From Desulfovibrio sp. TomC (lineage in GTDB: Bacteria > Desulfobacterota > Desulfovibrionia > Desulfovibrionales > Desulfovibrionaceae), in assembly GCF_000801335.2 (NCBI RefSeq), contig NZ_JSEH01000014.1:1-64000 (forward strand): a DNA stretch of 64,000 bases. Direction: 5' to 3'. The position numbers and the translations under genes are program-made. Numbering within the stretch: position 1 is the first letter of the stretch; every line of letters starts with the position of its first letter. Shown here piece after piece: positions 52,676 through 64,000 of this stretch. Under the pieces are notes generated by a model. It made no database searches and was not told the DNA's origin. It saw only the letters and a program-made list of their open reading frames with translations.

Positions 52676-53764
52676 ATGAGTCTTTCCGCAATTCGTACGG
52701 CAGCGTTGCTTGGCATTGAGGCCTACCCGGTGTCCCTGGAGGTCGATCTGGCCCGCCAGGGGATGCCGTCGTTTTCCATGGTGGGGCTGGCCGAGGGAGC
52801 GGTGCGCGAGAGCAAGGAGCGGGTGTTTGCCGCCCTGCGCAACGCCGGACTCAAGCTGCCGCCAGCGCGCATCACCGTCAATCTGGCTCCGGCCGACATG
52901 CGCAAGGAAGGCTCGGCCTACGACCTGCCCCTGGCCCTGGCCCTGCTGGCAGCGGTGGACGCCTTTCCGGCCGAGGCGGTCAGCGGCTTTTTCATGGCCG
53001 GCGAGTTGTCGCTGACCGGCGAGCTGCGGCCTGTCTCCGGCGTCCTGCCCCTGGCCGCCCTGGCCCGGCGCGAGGGGGCCAAAGGGCTGCTGGTCCCCCG
53101 GGGCAATGCGGCCGAAGCGGCGGCGGTGGAGGGACTCGCCGTTTATGCCGCCGATTCGCTCCTGGAGGTGCTGCACTTTTTCACCGGCGAAGCGGCGCTG
53201 GCCCCGGCCACGCCCCTGCCCTTTGTGCCCGACGCCGTGGACGCTGCCTTTGCCGAGGATTTTTCCGAGGTCAAAGGCCAGGAACATGCCAAGCGGGCGG
53301 TGGAGATTGCGGCAGCCGGCGGGCACAATCTGCTGTTCATCGGTCCGCCGGGTTCGGGCAAGACCATGCTGGCCAAGCGGATGCCGACGGTGCTGCCGCC
53401 GCTTGATTTCGAGGAGGCGCTCGAGGTCACCACCATCTATTCCGTGGCCGGGCGTCTCGACGGCCAGGGGCTTTTGACCGTGCGCCCGTTTCGCAGCCCC
53501 CACCACACCATTTCCGATGCCGGCCTGATCGGCGGCGGCTCCTATCCCCGGCCGGGCGAGGTGTCCATGGCCCATCGGGGGGTGCTCTTTTTAGATGAAC
53601 TGCCGGAATTCAAAAAATCGGTGCTGGAAGTGCTGCGCCAGCCCTTGGAAGACGGCAAGGTGACCATTGCCCGGGCGGCGGTTTCGCTGTCTTATCCGGC
53701 CGACGTCATGCTGCTGTGCGCCATGAATCCCTGCCCGTGTGGAACACTTCTCCAACATCAATAA
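52676..53764 (+). pseudogene. comM: comM/yifB Mg-chelatase-like ATPase, truncated by insertion
   Basis: 362 of the usual roughly 500 residues remain. Intact parts are the N-terminal Lon-like domain ([40 protein letters not shown]), Walker [16 protein letters not shown] at about 221-232, and Walker [12 protein letters not shown] near 302. The reading frame runs through the conserved MNPCPCG and then into foreign codons (TLLQHQ, stop). The C-terminal Mg-chelatase domain is missing. ComM is a hexameric helicase that aids branch migration in natural transformation, so it is probably inactive here. Confidence 0.92.
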
Positions 53765-55343
53765 ATACATCAATATCAACGAGTTGGCCTGTAACCCGAA
53801 TTTCTCTAACAATAGATTTGAGCCGCAAAGCCTTCCCCACATCGTCTAAAAATTCCCAATTTGTGGCAAACGAACAGAGGTTTTCGAAAGAGGTGAGAAG
53901 AAACGTTTTAGTTGTGTCCTTCTCATTGATTAACCCGACAAGGTGATCCCTTGTCGCCTTGGCCTCGTCTATTTCTTTCTTAAGAACAGCGTATCTTCGA
54001 TCAAAATCGTCACCATCTATTCTATTGCATTCTAAAGCACCCAACAAATTGTCAAGACGATTTTGTAACAATTGAATGTTTGATTCTATTTGCGACAAGT
54101 CACAAGCATTTATTTTGCTATTAGAATTTTGTGTATAAAATAGATCTAAAATTTTTTGCTTGTCAGTCAAAAATTCTTTGTTTTCCGAAAGTGCTAACAA
54201 ACTGTCAGCAACATACTTCTCTATTTCTACGGAAGGTATATTTAACCCAGAACAGGCTTCAAGACCTTTTTGCATGCGATTTACGCATTTATAGTACCCA
54301 TAAGTTTTGTCAGAATTTTTCTTGGAAGTAGTATTGCCAGCCATCGCTCCGCCGCACAAACCACATTTCAATATGCCTGAAAGCAAATAGTTGCGCTTAC
54401 TGTTCGTCGGCTTCGTCGATATCGACTTTAGCATCGCTTGGACAGACTCATAAGTATCAACATCAATTATCGAAGGATGTTGTCCGTCACAAATAATCCA
54501 ATCCTGCTTGTCTTGAGCAATTAACTTACCAGTTACAGGGTCACTCCTCCTTTTACCATACCACGTTTTACCTATATATGTAGGATTTGTAAGAATTCTA
54601 TGGACTGAAACAGTTCCCCAGTGCCCACCATTCCGTGTTCTAAAACCCTGATTGTTAAGAGCGTGGGCAGTCTTTCTTATGCTATTGTGAGAAATAAAGA
54701 CCTGAAATATATTATTAACGACTTTAGCCTCGCTTTGGTATACATATAATTTTTTCTGCTCAGGATATAAACTGGCACTTTGCAAGGAAGCGTCTGGGCT
54801 TTCAGTGCCTAAACCAATGAGGTGCTTAGAGTACAGTTCCTGAGTAGTGTAACCAAATGGGACAACACCTCCATTCCATTTGCCTAATCGAGCACGATGC
54901 GACATGTCTACAGACACACGTTCAGCTACCAATTCTCTCTCAAACTGTGAAAGGACTCCTATAATCTGACGTAACAACCTACCATGTGCGGAGGTCGTAT
55001 CGATATTTTCTGATATACTTGCGAAGCGAATGTTAATCCCTTCAAAAAATTCTGTTAAGTACATCAAATCTTTCGTTGACCTTGTTATTCGGTCAAGTTT
55101 TGTCACAAAAACAGATGTTATCAATCCTGATTCTGCATCCCTAAGCAAGTCTTTAAGTGCGGGTCGGTTAGTGTCTTTGGCGCTAAAGCCAGCGTCCTTA
55201 TACAACTTAAAAACCGGTATTTGGTTTGCTACACAATATGCACGGAGTCTTTCCTCTTGCGTATGCAGCGAATCTTTGTCGATTTGGTTGGCAGTAGATA
55301 CTCGAACATATATACCTGCGCTAGCGGGAGGGGTGCTATTCAT
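53706..55343 (-). CDS. large serine recombinase (site-specific integrase)
   Basis: This 545-aa recombinase has the resolvase catalytic domain with the Ser of [11 protein letters not shown] (about residue 16), Arg-rich [16 protein letters not shown], and [18 protein letters not shown] recombinase domain follows, then a zinc ribbon ([14 protein letters not shown] ... YYKCVNR ... CSG) and a coiled-coil. GGTGAG precedes the ATG at 55343; an ATG six codons earlier has no such site. The last codons, GRDSWRTAA, are read from comM DNA, so the natural C-terminus before integration differed. It presumably integrates and excises this element. Confidence 0.95.
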
Positions 55344-55701
55344 TGTGCTCACCGAGTCCATATTTTAAGCTACATTAGATCAAGAAATCTATAATATCAA
55401 CCAGGGAAACCTGCCAACGCAAAAAATATACAATTCCTTGTCGTCTGTTTATTTTGTAATTGTATGTAGATTTTTTTACGACCATTACGACCTTTCACAA
55501 ATTTGTAACAACCTAAAATAGCGACACATCATGGCTATACATCGGTTTCTTCCAAAAAACAGCTTACCTTTTTATCGCAGTCGCGACGTTTTACAGTGGG
55601 ATAAGAACCTGAACGTTATTGCTAAGGTGTGAAAAAGCTTTCATTTAGCGAACTTCACCCATGTTTACAGCCATTTAGGCCCGAGTAAATCCGGTCAAAT
55701 C
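55344..55701. other. 358-bp AT-rich gap
   Basis: No gene is supported. It is upstream of the recombinase and downstream of the MFS operon. One stretch (55440-55510) is very AT-rich and may hold the recombinase promoter. Confidence 0.55.
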
Positions 55702-55914
55702 CTATGGGTTCCGACTAGGTTTACCTACTCCACCCTCCTGACACTTGGCGTGTCCGGGTCTGTTTCTTAGGCCAAAATCTTTCGGTACTCTACCACAGAA
55801 CGTTGGCGCTTGTTGGCTCATAGTTGGTCGGAAGCGACTAAATTCAAACGCGGAGCAGCAACCCCAGTTGTCCGGACAAGGGCAATCAGCGCCCCTTGGC
55901 GGCAACTCACTCAT
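55702..55914 (-). CDS. possible small Cys-rich protein, overlapping the MFS stop
   Basis: This 70-aa frame begins ATGAGTGAG, sharing eight bases with the MFS stop codon, and has ADCPCPDNWGCCSAFEF plus two further cysteines. It could be translationally coupled, but I recognise no family and it has no ribosome-binding site of its own beyond the overlap. It may be chance. Confidence 0.25.
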   Translation of the reverse strand: MSELPPRGADCPCPDNWGCCSAFEFSRFRPTMSQQAPTFCGRVPKDFGLRNRPGHAKCQEGGVGKPSRNP

Positions 55915-57478
55915 CATCCTGGACTGAGCCAGCAAGTGGATTCTCCTTTGGGCATCTGCGGCGGCCGATGATCAGCAGAGCCATGATCGCCCCAGCCAGT
56001 GCAATGCTTCCAAGGACCGTCATGCTCATAGCGATTGTTGAGGCTTGCGCTGAAACCATGGCGTTTTCCACCATTGCTGCTGAATCGGAGGGCAGCGACT
56101 TGAGGATGGCTGCGGCTACTGCATCGTTCCCGTCTTTGACGGCTTGCGCATATTCCAGGCCCTGCTGGAGAAACGGCTTTCCGGCCAAAGCTGTCCACAC
56201 CTTGTCAAGAGAATGAGCCCCCATGATCGATGTGACCAGGGCGACACCTAGCGCGGCCGGTACGTTGAATGTCATCTGAAGAAGACCGGAGCCCATGCCT
56301 GCCTGTTCGGGCTTGAGTGTACGCATCCCGGCCGCATTGCAGGCTGGCAAGGCGATTCCAACGCCTGCTCCCATCAGCGCCAAGGGGATGATGAGTTCGC
56401 CCAGGGTTGTCTCCCGACAGAAGGTGCCCATCCAGAACAACGCGACGGCCTGCATGGCCAGTGCAGCCACAATGGGAATTCCCGGTCCGATGTGGTCGAT
56501 AAGGCGACCTGCGGGCGGTTCAAGCACCATGCAAGTTCCGGTCGTGATGACGATGACCCAACTGGCCATCACTGGCGAGTAACCAAGAACTTCGATGAAA
56601 AACAGTGATCCCACGACGGTCAGCATAGGGATATAGACGAAACCGACGGCGCTTTCGGCAAAAAAAGCGCCGGAAAAAAGACGCTCACGCCACAGGGAAA
56701 AATCGACGAGGGGACAATCTGTGCGGGTCTCGACAATGCCGAACAAGGCGAGCAGCACAACGCCGACCGCCAGAGCCCCCCAGGTGCTAGGGGTACCCCA
56801 GCCGTTGCTGGCGTTTTGCAATCCATAGGTAACAAAGGTGATCCCAAGGCCGCCGAGGACGAGACCGATGATGTCATAGCGGCCGGAAGACAGTACGCTG
56901 CAATAGTTCCTTGTAGCCGCCAGAGTGACGAGAATGACTGCGGCAGTCAGCGGCACGGCGAGCCAGAAGACCCAGCGCCAACTCAGCAGATCGTGCATGT
57001 AGCCCGCGAATATCGGACCGACCAGCAATCCGAACCCGTGGGCAAATCCCCACAAGCCGACAGCGAATCCACATCGGGAAGCGGAAAATGCGTTTACGAC
57101 GATGGACAGGGTGGCCGGTGCTGAAATACCGATGCCGATGCCTTGCATTGTGCGCCCGGACACCATGAGCAAGCCGCTCGTGGCCATGGCGGACAGGATG
57201 AGGCCGCCGCCGAAAACCATATAGCCGATCACAATCATGCGGACCTCGCCCACGAGGTCGCCGAGGCGACCGCCAGCGATCAGCGCCGTGCCGAAGGCAA
57301 GGCTGTATGAAGTGATCGTCCAGGCCTGCATCGACAGGGACAGGTCGAGATCATCTTTGATTGTAGGCAAGGCGGGACCGATCACCGTGCTGAACATCTG
57401 AGCAATGAGCGCGCCAAAGCTCATGGCTGCCAGAATCCCCCAGGCGCTGGCGTTGGCCCTGCTATTCGTTTCACTCAT
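55907..57478 (-). CDS. MFS transporter, DHA2-type drug exporter
   Basis: This 523-aa protein has about 14 hydrophobic helices and MFS motif A as GGRLGDLVGEVRM after TM2. There is SGRTMQGIGIGISAPATLSIV in TM4 (motif B with Arg), and WGFAHGFGLLVGPIFAGYM-like motif C in TM5. These fit proton-driven DHA2 multidrug efflux pumps. It sits in the integrated element, so it may give drug or metabolite resistance; the substrate is unknown. AAGGGA lies eight bases upstream. Confidence 0.92.
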   Translation of the reverse strand: MSETNSRANASAWGILAAMSFGALIAQMFSTVIGPALPTIKDDLDLSLSMQAWTITSYSLAFGTALIAGGRLGDLVGEVRMIVIGYMVFGGGLILSAMATSGLLMVSGRTMQGIGIGISAPATLSIVVNAFSASRCGFAVGLWGFAHGFGLLVGPIFAGYMHDLLSWRWVFWLAVPLTAAVILVTLAATRNYCSVLSSGRYDIIGLVLGGLGITFVTYGLQNASNGWGTPSTWGALAVGVVLLALFGIVETRTDCPLVDFSLWRERLFSGAFFAESAVGFVYIPMLTVVGSLFFIEVLGYSPVMASWVIVITTGTCMVLEPPAGRLIDHIGPGIPIVAALAMQAVALFWMGTFCRETTLGELIIPLALMGAGVGIALPACNAAGMRTLKPEQAGMGSGLLQMTFNVPAALGVALVTSIMGAHSLDKVWTALAGKPFLQQGLEYAQAVKDGNDAVAAAILKSLPSDSAAMVENAMVSAQASTIAMSMTVLGSIALAGAIMALLIIGRRRCPKENPLAGSVQDDE

Positions 57479-57659
57479 TGGCAGTTCCCTTCATTATTAA
57501 AAGAACTATTGTATTGAATTCCTCTCTCTTCGTGACAGTGCATCGATTATTACAACGCATAACAATACAAATGACAAAATTAAATATCACACCTTAGGCC
57601 ACTGCCCCGCACACAAGCTATGAGTTCATGACCAAATGAGGGGCTAATGTTCCAAGCGA

Positions 57660-57854
57660 CTATCCTCGAATAACGAGATCTAGGTCAACGAACTCGGCAA
57701 CAAGCAACAGCAAGAGCCGCCAGTTTCTCACATCAATACCCCGTCGGAACATTACACACGCTTGGGCGAGTTGTCCTGACCGGCGAAGGACGGCAGCGGC
57801 GGCAAGGAGGAAGCGCCGATTGCCTTGATCATCACGCAAACAGATAGACATCAT
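57660..57854 (-). CDS. small protein, copy B of a duplicated gene
   Basis: This 64-aa protein contains QGNRRFLLAAAAVLRRSGQLAQA and MFRRGIDVRNWRLLLLLVAEFVDLDLVIRG. It is a close copy of the 68-aa protein at 61347-61553; by eye about 84% of 180 bases match. The short helical 'LRRSGQLAQA..MFRR' resembles a single TPR-like hairpin. The family is unknown. It lies 16 bp after the hybrid kinase gene. No strong ribosome-binding site is visible, so it may be a less-used duplicate. Confidence 0.6.
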   Translation of the reverse strand: MMSICLRDDQGNRRFLLAAAAVLRRSGQLAQACVMFRRGIDVRNWRLLLLLVAEFVDLDLVIRG

Positions 57855-57870
57855 CGTGTAATAACCTAAA

Positions 57871-60800
57871 TTAAATGGGAAAATCGTGTTCTATTGTTTC
57901 TTTTAATTCACTAAATCTTTTCTCTAGCTCAGGAATAAGGCTTTCAAGCACGCCACTATCTCTATTTTTTCCAGCTTGCTCCATTTTTAAAGCAGTTTCT
58001 AACATACGTTTTCCACTCACGTTCGCAGCAGCTCCCTTGATACTATGAGATATTCGTTCAGAAATCTCAAATTCACATGTCGCAATGCTTTCTCGCAATC
58101 GTTTCAGCTGAATAGGGATATCTCCCAGGAATGTTCTGATGACATATTGCGCTAAATCCTGATCGTCCATCATCCTGACCATCATGGACCTTTTATCGAA
58201 TACGGGTAGTCCATTTTCTTTTATAGCAATCTCATCTGTGCTGCGCTCCGGGGGGAGCGTAGACTGATTTGGCGACTCCTCACTATGATTCGGCAACCAC
58301 TTGGCAACGATCTCAGAAAGGATTTTGGCAGAGACAGGCTTTGTAATATAGTCATTCATGCCTTTTTCAAGGCATTGTTCCCGATACCTAGGCATTGCGT
58401 GTGCGGTCATGGCGATGATCGGAATGGCATGATCCAGTACAGCACTCTGGGGATTTCGAACCCGCCTTGTCGCCTCGAACCCGTCCATCACGGGCATCTG
58501 AACATCCATAAGAACCAAATCGTAGGAAATATTCTCGAGGGTCCGCAAGGCCTCTACGCCGTTAGCGACCGCATCCGTGTGCACACCAAGCTTGTTGAGG
58601 ATCCCCACAGCCACTTGCTGGTTTGTGATATTGTCTTCCACGACGAGAATTCGTCCAGTACGTTGCAACGGAAGTATTCGGTCCCTGGCAGATTGCCGTG
58701 TGATGATCTGAGGACTATCCTCGCGAGGTGATTCGGACAGGACACGTTGCAGAATGTTCAGCAGATCCCTGCGACGTATCGGTTTGAGCGCATACGCACG
58801 AAAGCCGGCTTCAAAAAAACGCTGGGAGTCGCCGTGACTTCCCATGGAAGTCAGCATTACCATCGCGACCCCGGCCAGGCGGGGGTCCGCTTTGATGGCC
58901 CGACCCAAGGCCAAGCCGTCCATACCCGGCATTTGCATGTCGATGACGGCCAGACGATATGGAGCATTCTCCTCTAGTCCACGGTACAAAGCCCCCAAGG
59001 CCTGCGGAGCATCCTGGACATCAAGGGGAAGCATTCCCCAGTTAGTCATATTGATCGTCAGAATTTCGCAATTAGTAATATTATCATCCACAACAAGCGC
59101 TTTCACATCTTTTAGAATCGCTGGAGAAAGCGTATCTTGTGAATAGTTTTTTTGTTTATCTATCAAAATGGTAAACCAAAATTCTGCACCATGACCATCT
59201 TTACTGTTAACTCCTATTTCGCCACCCATCATCTCTACAAGTTGCTTGGATATGGAGAGGCCTAATCCTGTTCCACCATAATTGCGTGTAGTAGAGTAGT
59301 CTGCCTGAGCGAACTTTTCGAATAAAATAGAGTGCTTTTCTTCAGGAATACCAATACCTGTATCTCGCATTGAGAAGCACAAAAGACATTTATTATCTTG
59401 TTCCTCACACAGGATGACCTTGACGCTCACCTCACCCTTAGAAGTGAATTTGATGGCGTTCCCAGCAAGGTTATTGAGTATCTGCCGCAACCGACCTGGA
59501 TCACCTCGCAAGGAGACAGGGACATTAGTATCGACGAAACAGAGGAATTCTAAACCTTTTTCATTAGCACGCAAAGCCATTGCGTCAGAAAATTCGTCGA
59601 CAAGATCCAATAGGTCGAAATCGAGTATTTCGAGATCAAGTTTCCCCGCCTCTATCTTGGAAAAATCTAGAATATCGTTGATAAGATTGAGGAGCGATTC
59701 TCCGCTTGATCGAATGACCTCCGCGTAGTGCTGTTGTTCGGTTGTGAGATCGGTGCCAAGCAGCAAACCGGTCATCCCGATGACGCCGTTCATGGGGGTT
59801 CGTATCTCATGGCTCATATTGGCCAAAAACTCGCTTTTTGCCTGAGTTGCGGCCTGGGCCTGACTCAACGCTTGATCCAAGGTGATGTTATTGATCTCCA
59901 TCTGCTGAGCAAATTTATGCAATCGTTCCTGGGCAATTTTGTAATCGGTCATATCGGTGTGAGATCCTGCCATGCGTACTGGCACCCCCGCATCGTCGCG
60001 TACCGCCTCCCCACGGGCAAGTATCCATCTGTAAGAGCCATTCTTGTGACGCATTCTGAACTCAATACTATATCTCTGAACAATCGAGTGAAGATACTGA
60101 TCAATATAATCAAAGACACGATCTTTGTCTTCAATATGAATGAGTGACTCAAACGTGCTAAAAACATTATCCAACTCATCTTCCCGATATCCAAGTTGCT
60201 CTTTCCATTTACGCGACAGGTAAAGGTCTTCTGTGCGCAAATCCCAATCCCATATGCCATCATTTGAACCATTTACTGCCAATTCAAACTGTTCTCTAGA
60301 TCTCTGCAACTCAGCTTCGGCCGCCTTCCTGCCTCTGATATCAATAAAGCACTCCAGATACTTTTGTTTTCCCCGAACAAGGATAGGAGTGACTGTCTTA
60401 AGAACAGGGAGTTTAGTTCCGTCGGCACAAAGCATAATCCGATCCGAATTGTCTATTTTCTGCCCAAGATCTCCTATTGGGCAAGTGCATTCAGAGGCTG
60501 GGCAAAGAAATTGGTGACAGCGATTACCCTGAATTCGATCAGGAGCTGCCCCAAACATGTTTGCCGCAGCTGTATTAACAAACTCAATGTTTCGTGACTC
60601 AGCATCAATGATAGCCATTCCAATGGGAAGGCTTTCCATTATGGTTCGTTGTATTTCATCATTCTCTTGCTTTGTTACCTCCGCATTTTTTCGATCCGTA
60701 ATGTCAATGACAAACCCTTGGTAATGCATGACGCATCCATCCGTATGATGCACGACCCGAGCATTCCGTGATACCCAGAACGTGGAGCCATCCCGACGCC

Positions 60801-61089
60801 GAAGTTGGCATTCGTGATTAACAATACATCCAGTGGCGTTCAATAATTTTAAAAAAAAATCCCTATCAGAAGGGTTTACGTATGTTTGCGTAGCGATATC
60901 AGTAATGGACGACATTAAATCTTCCGGGGATTCATAGCCGTGCATCACCGCCAACGCAGGATTGACAAATAAAAACCTTCCATCTGGTGTTGACTTGAAA
61001 AACCCAATAGGAGCATCTAGGATAACACTGATTGCCTCATCTGCATCTTTATTATTAAAATTTTGGTCAAGTGTATGATGAAGTGACAT
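57871..61089 (-). CDS. hybrid sensor histidine kinase with two receivers and HPt
   Basis: This 1072-aa protein contains three PAS domains (about 20-135, 145-262, 268-390; the second carries [17 protein letters not shown]). HisKA follows with His427 ([12 protein letters not shown]), then HATPase ([30 protein letters not shown]). Two receiver domains hold the Asp in [12 protein letters not shown] and in [13 protein letters not shown]. The C-terminal HPt carries its His in [13 protein letters not shown]. There is no membrane span, so it is cytoplasmic. AGGAG precedes the ATG. It is a full phosphorelay in one chain; the final receiver target is not in the window. Confidence 0.95.
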
Positions 61090-61159
61090 ACTTGGCTCCT
61101 ATCCTATGAAGAAGAACTAGCAAATCTAAGATTTTGTATTGCCCATGTATCGATCCAGT

Positions 61160-61342
61160 TCAATGCCACTTCGTCCTGTCGATCAGGCCGCGCTTGTCTA
61201 ATTCCCCGGCCTTGTAGCCGTCGAAGTCGAAGCGCTTTTTTACGGGACTCGACTGCTTACGCTTGGTTCTCAGGATCACTAGGGTGATGACCGTGCCGAT
61301 GACGATGCCGGCAAGAGTTACACCAAGGATGAAGATGTCCAT
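61160..61342 (-). CDS. small single-span membrane protein
   Basis: This 60-aa protein has one N-terminal membrane helix (MDIFILGVTLAGIVIGTVITLVIL) and a basic tail (RTKRKQSSPVKKRFDFDGYKAGELDKRG). GAGG eight bases upstream lies in the end of the preceding 68-aa gene, with four bases between stop and start, so translation is coupled. The hybrid kinase follows after 70 bp. It may anchor or regulate the kinase, but this is inferred. Confidence 0.7.
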   Translation of the reverse strand: MDIFILGVTLAGIVIGTVITLVILRTKRKQSSPVKKRFDFDGYKAGELDKRGLIDRTKWH

Positions 61343-61346
61343 ACGA

Positions 61347-61553
61347 CTATCCTCGGATGATAAGATCTAAGTCAACGTACTCGGCAACAAGTAAAAGCAA
61401 AGCACGCCAGTTCCTCACATCAACGCTTCGGCGGAACATTTCCCGCGCTTGGGCGAGTTGTCCTGATCGGCGAAGCGCGGCAGCGGCGGCAAGGAGAAAG
61501 CGCCGATTGCCTTGATCACCACGAAGATAGATCGCCAGCACGGGTCTGGTCAT
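61347..61553 (-). CDS. small protein, copy A of a duplicated gene
   Basis: This 68-aa protein contains LRGDQGNRRFLLAAAAALRRSGQLAQAREMFRRSVDVRNWRALLLLVAEYVDLDLIIRG. It is the better preserved copy of the pair with 57660-57854 and heads the run with the 60-aa membrane protein and the kinase. The helical pattern is TPR-like, but the protein is too short for a full repeat array. I do not recognise the family. Confidence 0.65.
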   Translation of the reverse strand: MTRPVLAIYLRGDQGNRRFLLAAAAALRRSGQLAQAREMFRRSVDVRNWRALLLLVAEYVDLDLIIRG

Positions 61554-61672
61554 ACTTGACCATAGCAGGGCCGCGCTTTCATTGTCACTAATTGTCCCAT
61601 CAGCAGGCAGGGATTGTCCGGCATGAAAATGTCTGAAAAAAATCCGGCGGACCAGGGTGGCAAGTGGCGCAG

Positions 61673-61882
61673 TTAACGCTCAGATTCGTCATGGTCCCGA
61701 TCTTTGGGCTTTTTCTTGCCGAACCACTTGGCCAAAATTAAGGAGCCGTAACCCGCGACTCCAGAAGCACCTACGGCTATTCAAGGGGCGCAGGTGCCCG
61801 TTCCTACTCCAAATACGGACAGGTAGACCAAGACCGCGCCGCCAACCAGCCAGGCAAAGACGGTGGTGAGTTTGCTTTTCAT
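61673..61882 (-). CDS. small membrane ORF with in-frame UGA (CxxU or broken)
   Basis: From ATG at 61882 the frame codes 33 residues with a membrane segment (LTTVFAWLVGGAVLVYLSVFGVG), reaches TGC GCC CCT TGA, and then stays open for 35 codons to TAA. The second part has another membrane-like helix (IAVGASGVAGYGSLILAKWF) and a charged tail (GKKKPKDRDHDESER). Cys-x-x-UGA is the selenoprotein CxxU pattern, and a 7-bp stem (AGCCGTA/TACGGCT) follows the UGA. No convincing bacterial SECIS apical loop was found, so a nonsense mutation is as likely. AGGG lies nine bases upstream. Confidence 0.4.
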
Positions 61883-62192
61883 AAAGATCAACCCTGAACT
61901 GGACCTTTTGGTCAACCACGGTATGCCCGACAACCGGACACACTTACCAGCTGCATTCTCTGCGACACGTTGCCCCAACACATCGAAATTTCGCTTCTAT
62001 TTTCACTAGACAGCGGCAGCGAGTGAAACAATCCAATCTGACCCACCGTCCAGGTCTCAATAGCGCATCCAGCACTTTGAATTCACGTGAAAATTTCCCA
62101 GGACACCGGCGAGATTTTGAAAAATGTGTCCACCCGTGATGAAACTAATAAAAGACCGATGCCGCAAGGCGACAGGAACAACAATTACTTCT
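61883..62192. other. 310-bp gap, no supported gene
   Basis: It lies between the kinase at the window end and the UGA-interrupted ORF. Only short frames without ribosome-binding sites are seen. Confidence 0.55.
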
Positions 62193-64000
62193 TTATTGTA
62201 TGTTGCTATGCTGACATTTCGCGACGTTGGAATCCTTATCATGCGGAATAAGTGGCAATTCAATGAGGAAGGTCGTTTTGTTTTCCGACGAAACAGAAAA
62301 CGAGATGTCGCCACCATGGGACTTGGCTATTAGTCGTGCGCTGTATGTCCCTAATCCTGTGCCGTGTTCTTTTCCATAACTAAAATATTTGGTAAATATT
62401 TTTTTTGACACATCTTCATTGATTACTCCAGGATTAGTTACGGAAATATACGAACAATCCGACAGAACGTAACAGGTTACTTCTACCACAGATCCATCAA
62501 CTGACGCTTCAACAGCATTTTTTACAATATTAAGAAGCATATTTTCAATTAAAAACTTTTCGCCAAACACAGTGCAACTATCTGGACTATTGCATTTGCA
62601 CTTGTTAGAAATCGTAATTTTTTTATGAATACAAATACTATGAAGTGTTTGAAGTACATTGCCGAGAACTTTTGGCAATTCAAATGGCATTCTTTTCGGG
62701 CAATAAACTCCACATTCCATTTTGTATAATTTGTCAGATGAATCAACGAGATTGATTACCTGTTGGATGGAGTTAAGTATTAGTGGGGCGACATTGCGAA
62801 GGCCATCGCCAATATCTTCTTGTAGAGCCAAGGACGCCAGAGAGTGTAATCCAGCAAGAGGAGATTTAATGTCATGACGTATTATCATTTCAACATCGTT
62901 GCGAAATATTTCAGCTTGCCTTCGCTCTGTTATATCTTCTGCTGAATATATAAAATATTCAACTTCACCATCTTTGTCAAATTTTGGATGTTTTGTTACA
63001 GACAAAAGTCTTGTCTCGTTATTTCCGTCTCGCACCCATTCCTCTGTGTTTATAGTTCTTCTTCCTTTGATAACGGCGCGGTTCTTTTCAATTATTTTTT
63101 GAGCAACTTCATGCGGAAAAATCTCGTCAATTCTTTTGAATTCTACCTCCTTCTTGCTTTTGCCGAGAAATGTGGCGTGAGAGTCATTGACGGCACCATA
63201 AGTAGACTCATCGAGCTGGTACCATACCTGAAGATGAATCGTGTCGAGTAACACTTTTCTATCTTCAAGGTCTTTCAATATTTGTGCATCTGCCTCTTTT
63301 CTCTTCACAATATTTTCTTTAAATACTTGAACAGATCTTGCCATATCGCCAATTTCATCCGAGTCGCTAGAATAGGGAACATCCTGGTTGTTCTCGTTCG
63401 ACAGTTCAGACATGGTTTTTGAAAGAGCTTTTATTCTAAAAGAGACTTTGACTTTTATGTACAGAAACAACGCAATGGAGATGGTTAGAAATGAAGCAGA
63501 GTAAAATATTGCTTCGGAAAGTGATTTTTTAGAAAATGCCAGCCTTTCCATTGCATACTGATTTGTCGTCGTTATGGCGGATTCCATTAGGGGGGCGATT
63601 GAATTCAAAGCATCGACCATTGTTTTTTCGTAAGCTTGTTTTTCGTATGGCAATTTCTGCTTTGAAAATATTGCATCAAGACTTGATTTTTGAATCGGAA
63701 CAAATTGGTCTATGTATTTTGTATTAAAATTTTTCAAGGCCATGTTGAGTGCTGCATTGTCAAGTAGCCTTGCTGATAGCCTAATGTCTTGGATTAATCG
63801 CGATGTGACACCTTCTAGCTTAAATACTTTAATGAGGTCATTGTCAGAAAGCACTCCGTCAGTTCCATAGGCCGAAAGCACCAGGGAGCATTCCGGACCT
63901 GCTGAATTGCGTAGAGACAAAAGTTTTGATTTTATGGTAAAAAATTCACGCGACGTGCCATCGATGATTTTTATGTCAGAAGTTAGGGCAAAGAGTAGCT
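62193..64000 (-). CDS. sensor histidine kinase, cut by the window end
   Basis: The frame is open to the window edge, so the N-terminus is missing (at least 602 residues present). It has a periplasmic helical sensor, a membrane span (FYSASFLTISIALFLYIKV), HAMP, a PAS-like segment (QVWYQLDESTYGAVNDSHATFLGKSKKEV), HisKA with IIRHDIKSPLAGL, and an ATPase with NMLLNIVKNAVEAS and GTGLGTYSARLIAKSHGGD. The last resembles the kinase at 7.9-9.6 kb. A Cys-rich patch (NKCKCNSPDSCTVFGE) precedes the N-box. It is AT-rich, like the rest of this island. Confidence 0.9.
   Translation of the reverse strand, partial: LLFALTSDIKIIDGTSREFFTIKSKLLSLRNSAGPECSLVLSAYGTDGVLSDNDLIKVFKLEGVTSRLIQDIRLSARLLDNAALNMALKNFNTKYIDQFVPIQKSSLDAIFSKQKLPYEKQAYEKTMVDALNSIAPLMESAITTTNQYAMERLAFSKKSLSEAIFYSASFLTISIALFLYIKVKVSFRIKALSKTMSELSNENNQDVPYSSDSDEIGDMARSVQVFKENIVKRKEADAQILKDLEDRKVLLDTIHLQVWYQLDESTYGAVNDSHATFLGKSKKEVEFKRIDEIFPHEVAQKIIEKNRAVIKGRRTINTEEWVRDGNNETRLLSVTKHPKFDKDGEVEYFIYSAEDITERRQAEIFRNDVEMIIRHDIKSPLAGLHSLASLALQEDIGDGLRNVAPLILNSIQQVINLVDSSDKLYKMECGVYCPKRMPFELPKVLGNVLQTLHSICIHKKITISNKCKCNSPDSCTVFGEKFLIENMLLNIVKNAVEASVDGSVVEVTCYVLSDCSYISVTNPGVINEDVSKKIFTKYFSYGKEHGTGLGTYSARLIAKSHGGDISFSVSSENKTTFLIELPLIPHDKDSNVAKCQHSNIQ

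Follow-up and report, generated by a model that had tools for sequence, protein, structure and literature searches.

A genomic island bearing a large serine recombinase (LSR) has very probably split the comM gene of the sulfate-reducing bacterium Desulfovibrio sp. TomC, and its recombinase frame appears to continue past attP into a helix-turn-helix (HTH) domain, so that this tail would be swapped on integration, an arrangement that looks new. The window, i.e., the whole stretch of DNA analysed, comprises bases 1-64000 of contig C14 (139,399 bp in total) of the strain's draft genome, G000 (5.07 Mb in 84 contigs). Its relevant features, together with one on a second contig, C19, are the following.

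52676..53736, plus strand: comM as far as the crossover block (N-terminal part), from junction comparison; the C-terminal part lies on C19
53732..53736: attL crossover block TGCCC within the NPCPCG codons; the right junction has TGCCC too
53706..55361, minus strand: large serine recombinase, 551 aa when integrated, with Pfam Resolvase, Recombinase and Zn_ribbon_recom
53706..53736, minus strand: end of the LSR frame, antisense to comM; in the inferred circle about 108 codons from C19, with an HTH, would replace it
53732..64000: left 10 kb of the putative 108,017-bp element, from the G+C drop and the contig join
55907..57478, minus strand: 523-aa ORF adjoining the recombinase, from the ORF list; G097 has a counterpart
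C19, about 86530-87007, minus strand: C-terminal part of comM, from the PF13335 match and the junction

The two comM junctions and the recombinase

comM reads normally from position 52676, foreign DNA begins within AATCCCTGCCCGTGTGG (53726-53742), and the break falls in the conserved NPCPCG codons at 53732-53736. A second junction, which the preliminary description had expected beyond the window, was found on C19, where it reads GTACCGAACCCTTGCCCCTGCGGCTACCTG in the comM sense and the C-terminal half of comM starts within AACCCTTGCCCCTGCGG; Mg_chelatase_C (PF13335) had its single match in the genome at E <= 0.001 there (C19:86555-86839). The two junction copies share TGCCC only and differ on either side of it, as att sites of serine integrases do, and because TGCCC is common to both, the crossover in G000 can be placed only to 53732-53736. 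An intact comM elsewhere had been named beforehand as an outcome that would speak against a disruption; none was found when G000 was searched with the N-terminal half and with PF13335, the former search returning this copy and two weak partial matches (E 5e-7 and 3e-4).

The recombinase matches Resolvase (E 1.5e-36), Recombinase (4.2e-24) and Zn_ribbon_recom (5e-14), with PF00239, PF07508 and PF13408 all above cut-off, which completes the domain set of a large serine recombinase. Its final nine residues, GRDSWRTAA, are comM antisense, just as the preliminary description had read them, and its central claim, that an LSR element splits comM at the NPCPCG codons, is borne out by both junctions, the LSR domains and the relatives described below. 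We infer that the LSR made the comM insertion. The 523-aa ORF next to it has a counterpart in G097 that also lies beside the LSR, with equal length and a near-identical start. An assembly artefact at the left junction was considered and rejected, since an LSR-comM junction at this place recurs in G000, G097 and G181.

The element, its join and its cargo

From the left junction, the path of the element leads along C14 to its end (139399) and then along the inverted C19 from its end (109361) to about C19:87007. In 1.5-kb steps, G+C is 0.57-0.67 left of the junction (from 40001) and 0.34-0.59 from the junction to the end of C14, and it is 0.44-0.58 on C19 from about 87501 to the contig end. The two contig ends share five bases (GAATT); a script found no end overlap of 10 bases or more. 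An ATPase ORF of 861 aa spans the join; in six family genomes a single protein aligns through it (58-87% identity over query 1-6 to 855-859), and in two further family genomes a protein runs through the join point at 28-30% identity. Given this overlap, the ORF across the join and the whole protein in relatives, the parts on C14 and C19 are taken as one element of 108,017 bp with a G+C of 0.475, on the basis of five shared bases and gene continuity in a draft genome.

The attR side of the G000 element carries BrxC, PglX, PglZ and BrxL together, a combination typical of BREX type I, and an AAA protein closest to HEC-02A. Other matches in the element are PAS histidine kinases, a GGDEF protein, prismane, TerC, HU, a RecD2-like helicase, a DNA polymerase A-like protein, a resolvase and a phage-type (tyrosine) integrase. 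Pfam searches of approximately 31 of the 97 predicted element ORFs found no relaxase, type IV secretion or conjugation gene, and three long ORFs adjoining attR had no Pfam match. The attR side of the G181 element matches ZorB, ZorC and ZorD, and its LSR side has two proteins matching the candidate system PDC-M16; these Zorya-type and candidate PDC-M16 genes lie on C6 and C15 (L100:8748-14057; L099:947-5903). Closer to attR, the ORFs of G000 and G181 have like starts by eye, which suggests a single backbone in which defence genes are swapped, i.e., an island family that may have exchanged its defence genes, BREX in G000 versus Zorya in G181.

Empty and occupied comM sites in related genomes

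We compared G000 with a family sample of 199 genomes and with its genus subset of 14 genomes, G000 included. A comM match is present in 195 of the 199 family genomes. Within the genus, nine genomes have a full-length comM, thereby supplying the empty site that had been sought in related strains, four have it split at the NPCPCG codons (G000, G097, G181 and G121), and the remaining genome (69% complete) has no comM match. The nearest empty site is that of G143 (97% amino-acid identity), AATCCCTGCCCCTGCGG. In at least 8 of the 199 family genomes comM is interrupted at the NPCPCG codons and an LSR gene enters the junction; this is a lower bound, as 16 of the 199, chosen by eye for weak or partial comM scores, were followed, and the remaining low-scoring genomes, mostly incomplete, were left out. 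G128, G078, G005 and G124 are outside the count of eight, as are G002, G029, G044, G116 and G178, where comM is split at other positions.

The LSRs at this site fall into two lineages that are 19-24% identical to each other. Lineage I comprises those of G000, G097 and G181, three genus genomes in which the LSR occupies identical comM codons, the copies of G097 and G181 being 98% and 79% identical to that of G000. Lineage II uses the same codons in G121, G130, G075, G038 and G083 and in the IMG/VR viral contig L142 (41.9 kb), one end of which lies in comM at the NPCPCG codons. In G121, G130, G075 and G038 the comM halves flank a single element on one contig. A lineage II LSR (E <= 1e-15) occurs in 7 of the 199 family genomes, two of which (G060 and G104) keep a full-length comM, and in 1 of 395 genomes of the phylum sample, at 29% identity. 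No uninterrupted lineage I copy was found in the viral contig, phage or plasmid collections; all phage matches, and all plasmid matches among those listed, were below 60% identity. For lineage II, the phage collection gave 35 records, all below 60% identity and all short of 80% query coverage.

Other breaks in comM were also seen in the family. In G083 (L111, L112 and L134) the gene is broken repeatedly, near codons 100-220 and at the NPCPCG codons. The halves in G128 lie 1.9 Mb apart (C1:3878444-3879496 and C1:1956970-1957449; L109 and L110), the break is one or two codons away from the LSR site, and ORFs with an identical start but no Pfam match lie near both halves. G116 (L114:2629-7968) has a Tni-type element, with Mu-type transposase, TniB and TniQ matches, at comM codon 288 in another conserved stretch; G178 (L115) and G029 (L113) are likewise split at codon 288 by eye, with similar-looking ORFs, and the single ORF searched there had no Pfam match. 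In G044 (L116:3872-5801), IS66-type transposase genes lie in comM near codon 220, near the Walker A codons.

The crossover point and attP symmetry

Within the 17-base motif of lineage II, the left copies look host-like as far as position 11, and host-like sequence in the right copies begins at position 10; we read this as a crossover in the second proline codon, at its CC. The inferred attP is symmetric about this CC, with G130 matching at 15 of 18 arm positions and G038 at 14, values reached in 0 of 20,000 shuffles each, and with G121 and G075 both matching at 10 (92 and 136 of 20,000 shuffles); G083 was excluded from the scoring. For lineage I, CC (53735-53736 in G000) was dropped as the crossover, since it gives only 4-5 of 18 versus 9-10 of 18 at TG (53732-53733), three bases to the left, which is the best centre but a weak one; in G097 and G181 another centre also reaches 9 of 18. 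The junction block reads TGCCC twice in G000, TGTCC twice in G181, and TGCCC versus TGTCC in G097. With TG as the centre the attP of G097 is identical to that of G000, and thus a G-to-D change at tail codon 1 depends on the choice of centre.

The recombinase frame across attP

To represent the circular form, the element ends were joined by script and the LSR frame was read across attP. From stop to stop this frame has 651 codons in G000, 651 in G097, 646 in G181 and 625 in G038; from its own ATG, the G000 LSR would be 650 aa long in the inferred circle versus 551 aa when integrated. The frame stays open in all three lineage I elements, and in G000 it runs approximately 108 codons past attP into the HTH domain, which matches HTH_3 (3.6e-7); the G038 tail scores 21.4 bits for MerR_1, slightly under the cut-off of 21.6. 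In AlphaFold models, built for each tail on an alignment of only three sequences, the G000 tail is predicted as an HTH of four helices (mean pLDDT 65.5, about 80 in the core) and that of G038 as a winged HTH of MerR type (pLDDT 85.9 in the best model, 47-67 in the other four). With no E value under 0.001, the former is structurally nearest to a designed DNA-binding protein, P22 c2, SinR and restriction-modification controllers; a Foldseek search with the latter placed HiNmlR nearest (E 6.6e-4), with BldC among the matches. Elsewhere in lineage II the frame extends past attP without an HTH, by 12 residues in G121, 18 in G130, 20 in G075 and about 28 in G083 (hand translation); with tails of 12-20 residues in G121, G130 and G075, comM-targeting LSRs do not generally have an HTH tail.

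For the G038 prophage a fused LSR-tail form is highly likely. A scan with the fused G038 protein returned the IMG/VR contig L122 (16.5 kb), which carries an uninterrupted site equal at 81 of 82 bases to the attP predicted from the G038 junctions, and in which the frame is open from the LSR end into the tail, the frameshifts in its LSR lying farther upstream. The ATG that precedes the HTH in G038 reads CTG in L122, and over tail codons 38-95 the two differ by eight synonymous changes and one non-synonymous change, while the last six codons diverge. Moreover, G104 and the viral contig L143 encode an LSR and a tail alignable with that of G038 as one protein, in open frames of 638 codons each, and these fused proteins lack about 23 residues at the position of attP in G038. 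This layout would be explained if the tail predated the placement of attP within the gene. Two side observations concern these contigs: the frameshifts in the L122 gene (L122:905-2746) would be sequencing errors or the mark of a decayed copy, and on the 48.6-kb L143 (2875-6708) the LSR-HTH gene adjoins, by eye, a portal-like gene on the opposite strand.

For lineage I the corresponding data are less decisive. Shuffling left the 20-codon linker of G000 open in 1410 of 5000 trials, and among the 101 tail codons compared between G000 and G181, 7 changes are synonymous and 11 non-synonymous, so neither openness nor selection proves the fused frame. The agreement of the frame in three related elements, together with the HTH domain, is suggestive only, and on balance we lean towards a fused LSR-HTH form for the G000 element.

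Proposed mechanism and alternative explanations

We propose that the island of approximately 108 kb, with BREX on its attR side, entered comM by a single LSR-driven attP x attB crossover within the codons of the NPCPCG motif, thereby splitting the gene. As this target is coding DNA unable to drift far, one attB would serve many species. With attP inside the LSR gene, the circle would encode a 650-aa LSR with an HTH tail, integration would exchange that tail for the nine comM-antisense residues of the 551-aa form, and excision would restore comM and the long LSR together. The tail, as our first choice, may act in the circle only, by binding DNA close to att or on the LSR promoter, in which case integration would change the behaviour of the LSR. 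Loss of ComM would also lower transformation. ComEC and DprA family matches are present in G000; however, these families also match in E. coli and in most of 14 controls, and thus the matches do not show natural competence. That insertion in comM protects elements from removal by transformation, an idea also raised in the preliminary description, is a published proposal, as far as the accessible text of its source goes (PMC4774983).

A different account of the tail is that an ordinary LSR island sits in comM, that the HTH ORF past attR is a separate gene, in frame by chance, and that the LSR end merely overlaps att. We regard this as possible, though not as the favoured reading: 28% of G000 shuffles and 51% of G038 shuffles leave the linker open by chance, an ATG precedes the HTH in G000, G097 and G181, and the tail-less LSR retains all three LSR domains, but no ribosome-binding site is evident by eye before that ATG. 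In lineage II a separate gene also fits poorly with the replacement of the G038 ATG by CTG in L122, with the eight synonymous versus one non-synonymous changes in tail codons 38-95, and with G104 and L143, where the LSR and a related tail are already one protein. If the fused form is accepted, the tail might instead be a built-in, excisionase-like recombination directionality factor (RDF), which we consider improbable. The predicted MerR-type winged HTH of G038, with HiNmlR and BldC among its Foldseek matches, would suit such a role, since the excisionase RdfS resembles BldC according to the available part of its description (PMC11963761). However, engineered integrase-RDF fusions, which demonstrate, in the portion accessible to us, that direction can be set by a fused partner, promote attL x attR and reduce attP x attB (PMC5737554), the opposite of what an integrating circle needs, which counts against this role, as does the different, repressor-like HTH of G000.

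The split itself could be attributed to DDE-type transposition of the AbaR/Tn7-like kind with a 5-bp target duplication, in line with the 5-bp block shared by the junctions (TGCCC in G000, TGTCC in G181) and with the Tni-type element inserted in comM of G116. This is very unlikely, given that the junction copies of G097 differ (TGCCC versus TGTCC), that no terminal inverted repeat was seen by eye, and that an LSR gene of one of two unrelated lineages enters the junction in eight of the eight genome cases followed. Equally hard to sustain is a chromosomal rearrangement that split comM, with halves that do not flank one element, even though the halves lie on different contigs in G000 and far apart in G128: G+C is low from both junctions to the contig ends, the contig ends join inside one gene, and single-contig elements lie between the comM halves in G121, G130, G075 and G038. 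Insertion by the LSR therefore remains our preferred explanation of the split.

Comparison with known systems

AbaR elements are large islands in comM of Acinetobacter, and their backbones move by Tni-type (Tn7-like) transposition. The parallel with AbaR drawn in the preliminary description holds for the target gene, as a large island in comM is common to both, but fails for the mechanism, which is Tni-type for AbaR, whereas here an LSR sits at the element end; with an LSR at the left junction and differing junction copies in G097, the element does not have the character of an AbaR/Tni-type island, as judged with about 31 of 97 ORFs searched with Pfam. Rather, it fits the class of LSR elements in magnesium chelatase/comM genes, since its junction carries an LSR and related genomes have the site empty. 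In the accessible part of one survey, 12.4% of predicted site-specific LSRs target a magnesium chelatase/ATP-dependent protease gene, taken to be of the ComM/YifB family via a PF13335 match, and, as here, the enzymes are of the same class and unrelated LSRs share the target (PMC10083194). Unlike our predicted layout, neither attP inside the LSR gene nor an HTH tail is described in that part of the survey. Phage WO of the sr1WO type, as far as its available description goes, is likewise an LSR element flanked by portions of a gene, the magnesium chelatase gene of Wolbachia, but it is a tailed prophage, whereas the G000 island looks non-phage as far as searched (PMC9203015). Disruption of comM by mobile elements is also covered in the accessible text of a paper on competence genes (PMC4774983).

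For attP inside the recombinase's own gene, the search of the open-access literature found no serine recombinase, and the nearest case was that of the archaeal suicidal tyrosine integrases. In mycobacteriophage integration-dependent immunity, attP lies inside a coding sequence and the product changes on integration, but there the altered gene is a repressor, whereas in G000 it would be the recombinase. In the SSV-type archaeal enzymes, according to the available portion of a review, att lies inside the integrase gene and integration alters the gene, as we predict here; however, those are tyrosine enzymes split through the protein, whereas the serine recombinase of G000 keeps its catalytic domains and would lose only its tail (PMC8371274). 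That review, which deals with archaeal tyrosine recombinases, states that self-disrupting recombinases are confined to archaea (PMC8371274). We tentatively suggest that the comM-targeting LSRs of two lineages may be a bacterial, serine-type equivalent of the archaeal suicidal integrases, a reading that comprises attP in the LSR gene, a tail present only in the circle, and an enzyme rewritten by integration, which could set the direction of recombination while disabling comM.

Implications

Since LSR insertion in comM-type genes is common and published, the disruption alone adds one more member to a known class. The point of interest is the att layout: two lineages with approximately 20% identity share their comM target codons, and both include an element whose attP apparently separates the recombinase from an HTH tail. 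Should the fused form prove real, it would provide a natural and testable recombinase whose protein is changed by its own reaction, and would be useful for understanding and designing directional serine integrases.
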